A DNA stretch of 64,000 bases from a virus: the IMG/VR virus record IMGVR_UViG_3300042301_002266, positions 1 to 64,000 of that record; one strand, written 5' to 3'. A model generated the notes under the pieces. The model ran no database searches, was not told the DNA's origin, and saw only the letters and a program-made list of their open reading frames with translations. The translations under genes were made by a program, and so were the position numbers. Positions 46,834 to 61,329 of this stretch are shown here, in pieces. The stretch's first letter is position 1; each line of letters begins with the position of its first letter.

Positions 46834-47112
46834 ATGAAAATAAGAGGATATCTTCTAGAAGGAGTAAATGAAGAATTACTACTTGTAATTAGAGGATACG
46901 ATGAAGAGCAAATGTATTCTATTATTAAAAAATTAGAATCTATGCGTGATCAAGAAGTAAAAGAATTAGCGGAAGTATTGGAGAATCATTTAAATGACCG
47001 AATTAGCAATGGAAGAAATTCTGTCAAAGCTAGACCCCAAAACAAGAAAAAGGGTTCAGGCAGCAACAGAAGTAGAAATAGAAAAACAATCAACACCAAG
47101 CCTCAGTCTTAA
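46834..47112 (+). CDS. Hypothetical leaderless protein overlapping recA
   Basis: 92 residues. The first 55 residues are a helical domain (GVNEELLLVIRGYDEEQMYS then LESMRDQEVKELAEVLENHL). The last 37 residues are strongly basic and low complexity and coincide with 119 bases of the recA gene in another frame. The N-terminus is supported by a leaderless promoter. I do not recognise the family. Confidence 0.6.
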   Translation: MKIRGYLLEGVNEELLLVIRGYDEEQMYSIIKKLESMRDQEVKELAEVLENHLNDRISNGRNSVKARPQNKKKGSGSNRSRNRKTINTKPQS

Positions 47113-60196: not shown

Positions 60197-60700
60197 ATGC
60201 GATTCAAAACCTTGGTTTTGATTCCCGTTATTGCGGTTCTTGCAACATTTGTTGTATCCCTACCAGTAACCCAGAATCAAACCAGTGCTAATGAGGCACC
60301 GCAAAAAATAAAGTTAGTTGTAAGAACAACTGACACAGATAGAACAAGGCAAGTTGCAGCATCAAGATCTGCACAAAGATTTGCCTTCGGAACCCCAGCA
60401 TATAATAAACAGTTCGCTGCTTTTTATATGAAAGATAAATATAAGTGGGGTAACAAAGAACATTCCTGTTTAGTAAAGCTCTGGAACCGTGAAAGCGGTT
60501 GGCGACAAAACGCACATAATAAGAGCTCTGGAGCACATGGAATACCTCAGTCCCTGCCAGGTAAGAAGATGGCATCAATGGGTTCTGATTGGAAAACAAA
60601 TCCTGAAACACAAATAAAATGGGGTTTGAAATATATAAAGGGGAGATATAAAACACCATGTAATGCTTTAGGGCATTCTAATAAACACAACTGGTACTAA
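60197..60700 (+). CDS. Secreted lytic transglycosylase (SLT/Rpf-like)
   Basis: 167 residues. A signal peptide (about residues 1-31; basic start and LVLIPVIAVLATFVV core). The mature domain has LWNRESGWRQNAHNK with catalytic Glu99, SGAHGIPQSLPGKKMASMG and WGLKYIKGRYKTPCNALGHS. This matches the lysozyme-fold transglycosylase domain common in actinobacterial resuscitation-promoting and phage wall hydrolases. It cleaves glycan strands. It complements the M23 endopeptidase, and secretion by the host Sec system would not need a holin. Confidence 0.87.
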   Translation: MRFKTLVLIPVIAVLATFVVSLPVTQNQTSANEAPQKIKLVVRTTDTDRTRQVAASRSAQRFAFGTPAYNKQFAAFYMKDKYKWGNKEHSCLVKLWNRESGWRQNAHNKSSGAHGIPQSLPGKKMASMGSDWKTNPETQIKWGLKYIKGRYKTPCNALGHSNKHNWY

Positions 60701-60702
60701 CC

Positions 60703-60740
60703 AGATGTCCTGAGCAAAGACATTAAACTGCTCACCATCT
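60703..60740 (+). other. Two-part hairpin before the second tRNA cluster
   Basis: AGATG (60703-60707) pairs with CATCT (60736-60740), and TGAGCA (60711-60716) with TGCTCA (60729-60734). It follows the transglycosylase gene by three bases and abuts tRNA-CAT, so it may be a weak terminator or a processing signal. Confidence 0.5.
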
Positions 60741-60815: not shown

Positions 60816-60841
60816 CGTTAATGTAGTATAATTTAATACAC

Positions 60842-60913
60842 GCCTCTTTAGCTCAGTGGTAGAGCAACGCTCTTGTAAAGCGTAGGTCTTCAGTTCAAGT
60901 CTGAAAAGGGGCT
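60842..60913 (+). tRNA. tRNA-Thr (TGT)
   Basis: Acceptor GCCTCTT/AAGGGGC (one T-G pair), D stem GCTC/GAGC, anticodon stem ACGCT/AGCGT with loop CTTGTAA (TGT, 60874-60876), T arm TTCAG-TTCAAGT-CTGAA. CCA is not encoded. Confidence 0.88.
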
Positions 60914-60916
60914 CTA

Positions 60917-61014
60917 GGTGGCAGGAAGTCGTCCTTAGTGATGGTTGATAGTTACAGTTACGAGTCCAGAGAGACACGTTTGCCAGTGTAGGTAAATAAG
61001 GTCTTCCTGTCACC
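60917..61014 (+). ncRNA. Candidate structured RNA, about 98 bases, of unknown class
   Basis: Ends pair in a 12-bp stem (60917-60928 with 61003-61014, one G-U). Inside are CCTTA/TAAGG (60933-60937 with 60997-61001) and ACAC/GTGT (60974-60977 with 60986-60989), and the rest is not coding. It does not fold as a tRNA (no T-loop consensus). It lies three bases after tRNA-Thr, with the thioredoxin gene starting 21 bases after its end, so it may be a processed small RNA or a leader structure. Confidence 0.55.
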
Positions 61015-61035: not shown

Positions 61036-61329
61036 ATGAATATCGAAGAGTTTAATGAATTAGTTAAAGAAGGAACTACAATTGTAGATTTCTGGGCAGA
61101 GTGGTGTGGTCCATGTAAAATGGTTTCACCAGTACTAGATGAAATTGCACAAGAAACTGGATCAAAGCTAATTAAGATTGATGTAGACAATGAGCCAGAG
61201 TTAGCAAAAGAGTTTGGAATTTCTGGAATTCCAGCAATTATGATATATAATGATGGAGTAAGAACAAAATCAATTGTTGGTGCAAAACCAAAACCAGCTT
61301 TAAAGAAAGTACTATTTGACAATGTTTAA
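61036..61329 (+). CDS. trxA: Thioredoxin
   Basis: 97 residues, SD AAAAGGAGAAAG. Active site WCGPC (near residues 22-26) and cis-Pro in GISGIPAIMIY. It reduces disulfides; the likely client is the class II ribonucleotide reductase at 3685, whose C-terminal Cys pair needs a reductant. It directly follows the structured RNA and overlaps the next gene by eight bases. Confidence 0.93.
   Translation: MNIEEFNELVKEGTTIVDFWAEWCGPCKMVSPVLDEIAQETGSKLIKIDVDNEPELAKEFGISGIPAIMIYNDGVRTKSIVGAKPKPALKKVLFDNV

Follow-up and report, generated by a model that had tools for sequence, protein, structure and literature searches.

The window, that is the whole 64,000-nucleotide stretch of DNA analysed here and part of an 85.8-kb virus record, carries between a tRNA-Thr gene and a thioredoxin gene a 98-nt element (positions 60917–61014, + strand) that is predicted to be a structured RNA; it is very strongly conserved and belongs to no catalogued family. 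It very probably has a function, because by sequence comparison its conservation far exceeds that of the flanking genes. We read it most economically as a small structured phage RNA gene, transcribed together with tRNA-Thr and giving rise on release to a stable RNA of about 100 nt; we put the probability of this at about 50%.

Position and predicted structure of the element

The upstream neighbour, tRNA-Thr(UGU), lies on the + strand at 60842–60914 according to ARAGORN and at 60842–60913 according to Rfam (RF00005, 69.2 bits), and the downstream neighbour, trxA (61036–61329, +), encodes a 97-aa thioredoxin (Pfam PF00085, E 5.5e-27; PHROG 22) from an ATG at 61036. These calls agree with an earlier note on this DNA, which had placed the element between the two genes. 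On the + strand the element has a predicted folding energy of −33.9 kcal/mol (z −4.10), which none of 200 shuffled sequences equalled, whereas the − strand folds more weakly (−24.9 kcal/mol, z −2.54). The fold is closed by a 12-bp stem, P1, formed by GGUGGCAGGAAG (60917–60928) and CUUCCUGUCACC (61003–61014) through 11 Watson-Crick pairs and one G-U, and both strands are invariant in all seven full-length variants described below. Within it are an internal loop, UCGU, a 4-bp helix, P2, supported by the fold and by pairing counts (CCUU at 60933–60936 with AAGG at 60998–61001), and three hairpins. P3 (60938–60955; GUGAU-GGUUGAUA-GUUAC) is invariant in sequence, P4 (60961–60978; CG.GUC-loop-GAC.CG) has a variable loop, and P5 (60979–60996; UUUGCC-loop-GGUAAA) varies in its loop and 3' strand. 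The other six variants fold too, with z-scores of −2.8 to −4.1. A 12-bp terminal stem with inner helices, as proposed in the earlier note, is thus borne out by the predicted fold.

The further claim that the element contains no open frame is not strictly correct, since there is a 16-codon ATG ORF at 60941–60991. It holds in the sense that no conserved gene is present, because contig L035 has lost a net 1 nt in the P4 loop and L033 has deletions, each of which breaks the frame, and we rejected a coding role on these grounds. Rfam 15 has no family on 60917–61014, whether the gathering score is applied or, with lax filters, E≤10; a known family, one of the outcomes that the earlier note had set against its own proposal, is excluded for that release. 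ARAGORN called no tRNA or tmRNA in the element, its only calls nearby being tRNA-Met and tRNA-Thr. With neither program matching, the view that this is not a tRNA stands, and the description as a structured RNA of unknown class is upheld by the significant fold, the extreme conservation, the location on the tRNA strand and the lack of an Rfam family.

Homologues, distribution and conservation

Homologues are present in 16 IMG/VR contigs besides the window's own record; the full-length copies fall into seven distinct variants, and one copy is truncated. A search of IMG/VR with trxA returned 80 neighbourhoods. Three exact patterns taken from separate parts of the element recovered one common set of 16 contigs, although such searches may miss homologues that have diverged beyond the pattern tolerance; the only exceptions concern the third pattern, which misses two true carriers (changed bases at its 5' end; a cut at the contig end) and matches L097 and L098, where the surrounding sequence is unrelated to the element and the match is due to chance. 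Nineteen extra contigs with a 16-nt core were likewise discarded as chance matches, and L225, the single new contig found with a gapped pattern, proved to be unrelated sequence. With a covariance model built on six variants, every carrier record yields a single copy, and nothing credible is matched in records of non-carriers or in two Streptomyces phages, Gilson and Faust; a match to Faust consisted essentially of tRNA-Thr alone. Distant blastn searches of named phages and plasmids gave only spurious partial matches of 19–28 nt and not the element, and an exact 18-nt core had three matches in 84,980 bacterial and archaeal genomes, with nothing in common beyond the core. We found no description of the element in the literature. 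As far as seen, it is confined to one group of related phages.

Carrier records have a single copy each, always 2–3 nt 3' of tRNA-Thr(UGU), and trxA follows wherever the contig extends that far, its ATG lying 21–25 nt beyond the element. All full variants are identical over the last 16 positions of the element and over a block of 42 that opens with the first G of P1 and ends just past P3, taking in the 5' strands of P1 and P2, the internal loop and P3; variable sites occur only in the P4/P5 region and in the junction that precedes P2. Between the window and L023 the element shows no substitutions and one gap, as against 12 of 72 differing positions in tRNA-Thr and 85 of 285 in trxA; compared with L015 there is one substitution, against 13 and 74 differences, respectively. 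Because both flanks have diverged, selection on the element explains its conservation better than would repeated exchange ending exactly at its edges, although some exchange may have taken place, as the element variants track the trxA tree poorly.

Several near relatives (L010, L021, L024 and L027–L031) lack the element cleanly and have tRNA-Thr directly upstream of trxA, with a spacing of about 26 nt. Carrier L032 and non-carriers L029 and L031 encode nearly the same TrxA, and on the terminase tree presence and absence change at least three times. The element is therefore optional, dispensable both for this neighbourhood and for retention of trxA. We note that in non-carriers L008, L009 and L019 a conserved basic ORF of about 65–70 codons (MRQPRKPRQPRKPREKKQKF...) replaces it between tRNA-Thr and trxA.

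Support for the predicted fold

The earlier note had called for a check on covariation in homologous loci. No compensatory substitutions were found: across the variants, no pair has both of its bases changed, and P1 and P3 are constant throughout. This is because the stems hardly vary at all. Pairing is kept in 99.1% of cells, compared with at most 58.6% for slid versions of the structure, and the P5 pairs survive one-sided changes from U-A to U-G and from G-U to G-C. In L033, 7 nt and 2 nt are missing, such that the outer CG/CG helix of P4 is gone on both sides, and the fold of this single sequence retains P1 to P5; this apparent two-sided deletion backs the fold, albeit suggestively only, as the alignment is biased towards the model structure. 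The predicted fold thus draws its support from its energy, from pairs changed on one side and from a single deletion that apparently took both sides of a helix.

Transcription signals and surrounding sequence

A promoter-like motif, GTATAATTTAATA, lies just before tRNA-Thr at 60826–60838 (+). It is of a type, GTATAATTWAATA, of which the window has five copies with up to one mismatch where 0.67 would be expected, at + strand positions 222, 38283, 56805, 56976 and 60826; one copy precedes tRNA-Thr, one precedes tRNA-Asn, one follows tRNA-Arg and two are elsewhere. A similar motif is in the same place in carriers L003, L005, L007, L013, L026, L032, L035 and L095 and in non-carriers L010, L029 and L031, and is absent before tRNA-Thr in carriers L015, L023 and L033. 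Between tRNA-Thr and trxA the + strand has no terminator-like site. When the region is folded jointly, the element is predicted to form independently and the trxA ribosome-binding site to be unpaired, and therefore no expression platform can be seen. A role as an antisense regulator of phage mRNAs found no support, as six carrier genomes share no target beyond chance, a comparison whose scope is phage transcripts and not protein or host-RNA partners.

A second conserved non-coding motif, TGTCCTGAGCAAAGACATTAAACTGCTCA, is located at 60706–60734 (+), 5 nt past the stop codon of a transglycosylase ORF (60197–60700). It can form an H-type pseudoknot (UGUC/GACA and UGAGCA/UGCUCA), and has no Rfam match at E≤10. 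The exact pattern is found in 32 IMG/VR contigs, mostly 4–18 nt past an ORF stop, and occurs in both carriers and non-carriers of the 98-nt RNA. L006 and L007 have a second copy of this type 5 nt upstream of their tmRNA gene, with the compensatory change UGAGUA/UACUCA. The motif looks like an mRNA 3'-end structure or a boundary element between mRNA and stable RNA.

The phage and a candidate partner gene

The large terminase shares 61% identity with its counterpart in Gilson, a Streptomyces phage of the family Stanwilliamsviridae, and on this basis we infer an actinobacterial host; a freshwater habitat is a guess. tmRNA genes are encoded in L003, L006, L007, L023, L029, L031 and L037 (with tags such as GTTQTALALAA), and RF00023 has no match in the window's whole 85.8-kb record.

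A small gene at 46834–47112 (+) encodes 92 aa and overlaps the start of recA. It was found in all six carriers that span the site and in none of the six site-spanning non-carriers, a contrast that was picked out post hoc and amounts to one or two phylogenetically independent comparisons. For these reasons its product is a possible partner of the RNA as a lead only. Nine further records with the gene end before trxA, and so neither support nor contradict the link.

Proposed mechanism and alternatives

We propose that the element would be transcribed together with tRNA-Thr; in many carriers the promoter-like motif that immediately precedes this tRNA would probably drive transcription. As host nucleases trim the tRNA to its mature 3' end, an RNA 5' end would be left 2–3 nt ahead of P1, and a cut in the AU-rich spacer GUUUAUUUAAA before trxA would yield an RNA of about 100 nt closed by that stem. 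A single conserved host partner, probably a protein or RNP, would then be bound by the core that does not vary, made up of P1, the UCGU internal loop, P2, and P3 with its GGUUGAUA loop, with P4 and P5 serving as variable struts. The analysis itself shows the predicted fold, the strand and position, the homologues, the pattern of conservation and the optional presence; where transcription starts, how the RNA is processed and released, that it acts in trans and what type of partner it has are inferred. Release of such an RNA is consistent with a significant + strand fold in all seven variants, with the much stronger conservation of the element than of its neighbours and the restriction of variation to P4/P5 and the junction before P2, with the close abutment to the tRNA 3' end, with independent folding that leaves the trxA ribosome-binding site free, and with close relatives that lack the element and still keep tRNA-Thr beside trxA; a precedent for the layout is provided by T4 rnaD and rnaC. 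Less comfortable for it are the constant location directly upstream of trxA, as expected of a cis leader, the want of a conserved antisense target in six carrier genomes, the three carriers with no promoter-like motif, and the absence of compensatory base changes.

The main rival is that the element is a cis-acting leader of trxA, whose fold would stay on the 5' end of the mRNA after tRNA-Thr is removed and either block 5' exonucleases or sense a ligand, with P1, the junction and the hairpins as the aptamer. We regard this as a real contender that falls short of probable. The fixed site and orientation 21–25 nt ahead of the ATG would be explained, as would the riboswitch-like anatomy, with a stem that closes off a conserved core and hairpins whose loops vary, and the presence of a 12-bp stem 2–3 nt from the tRNA 3' end; it is harder to account for the many close relatives that retain trxA without the element, for the free ribosome-binding site and lack of a terminator-like site, or for an invariant interior, which a plain protective hairpin does not need. 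A site acting at the DNA level, in replication origin, packaging or recombination, could be served by an invariant 12-bp imperfect inverted repeat at one copy per genome, but we consider it unlikely given that the + strand folds much better than the − strand, that the conserved G-U pairs and the U-A to U-G change in P5 pair only in + strand RNA, that GC skew has no sign change near the element in the window, and that close relatives do without it. That the element is a functionless spacer with a chance hairpin, near-identical only through recent exchange by recombination within the flanks, is very improbable: such phages are mosaic and the element variants follow the trxA tree only loosely, yet carriers whose elements are identical or nearly so differ strongly in both tRNA-Thr and trxA, and therefore exchange would have to stop repeatedly at the element edges, and the fold is significant in every variant. 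We give hardly any weight to a mobile, MITE-like inverted-repeat element inserted once beside tRNA-Thr; terminal inverted repeats, clean presence or absence in relatives and near identity between distant phages recall such elements, although each carrier record has exactly one copy at the same site, no target-site duplication is seen, and the variation respects the hairpins.

The interpretation in the earlier note is thus partly supported: the structured RNA of unknown class is upheld, and the data do not separate the three roles put forward for it (a phage small RNA, a processing element of the tRNA cluster, or a regulator of thioredoxin expression). Close relatives with tRNA-Thr next to trxA and no element weaken the processing-element and required-thioredoxin-regulator readings relative to a stand-alone phage RNA. 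More speculatively, and with rather less confidence than we attach to a leader, the element may represent a new phage RNA family whose invariant core takes up a three-dimensional fold that binds or inhibits one conserved host machine as an RNA mimic, or which in cis resists 5'-to-3' exonucleases at the mRNA end left by excision of tRNA-Thr, as a phage counterpart of exonuclease-resistant viral RNAs. What makes the element useful is that it is an independent, very strongly conserved non-tRNA RNA beside a phage tRNA gene, that seven natural variants separate its fixed from its free positions, and that some relatives naturally lack it; with such clear boundaries, variants and element-free relatives, pull-down and deletion tests would be straightforward given a host-phage pair.

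Comparison with known RNAs

The closing stem and three hairpins give the element an arm count like that of a cloverleaf, and it adjoins a tRNA. It differs from tRNA (RF00005) and tmRNA (RF00023) in having no ARAGORN call and no match at E≤10; neither program recognises in it the cloverleaf with T-loop and anticodon loop and covariance score above 29 bits that define a tRNA, or the tRNA-like domain and tag reading frame of a tmRNA. Riboswitches and other leader RNAs share with it the location 5' of a gene, a multi-branch fold closed by P1 and a conserved core, whereas the element has no Rfam match and no visible expression platform, and its gene is kept without it in relatives.

The closest parallel in layout is with the small stable RNAs of T4, RNAC and RNAD (species 1 and species 2). 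These belong to another phage family and have no trxA context in T4, and Rfam has no family on rnaC or rnaD either; the best hit of the element's covariance model in the T4 tRNA region in an unfiltered cmsearch, 7.9 bits, is not significant and is at neither gene. RNAC and RNAD have been detected by Northern blot, and their functions are called yet unknown (PMC9697503). Like the element, they are non-tRNA species on the tRNA strand that adjoin a tRNA 3' end, rnaD starting 1 nt after tRNA-Arg with rnaC next, and at 139 and 119 nt they fall in a similar size class to its 98 nt. The element thus resembles RNAs of the RNAC/RNAD kind in its layout, a likeness that, with unrelated sequences, is at most an analogy.
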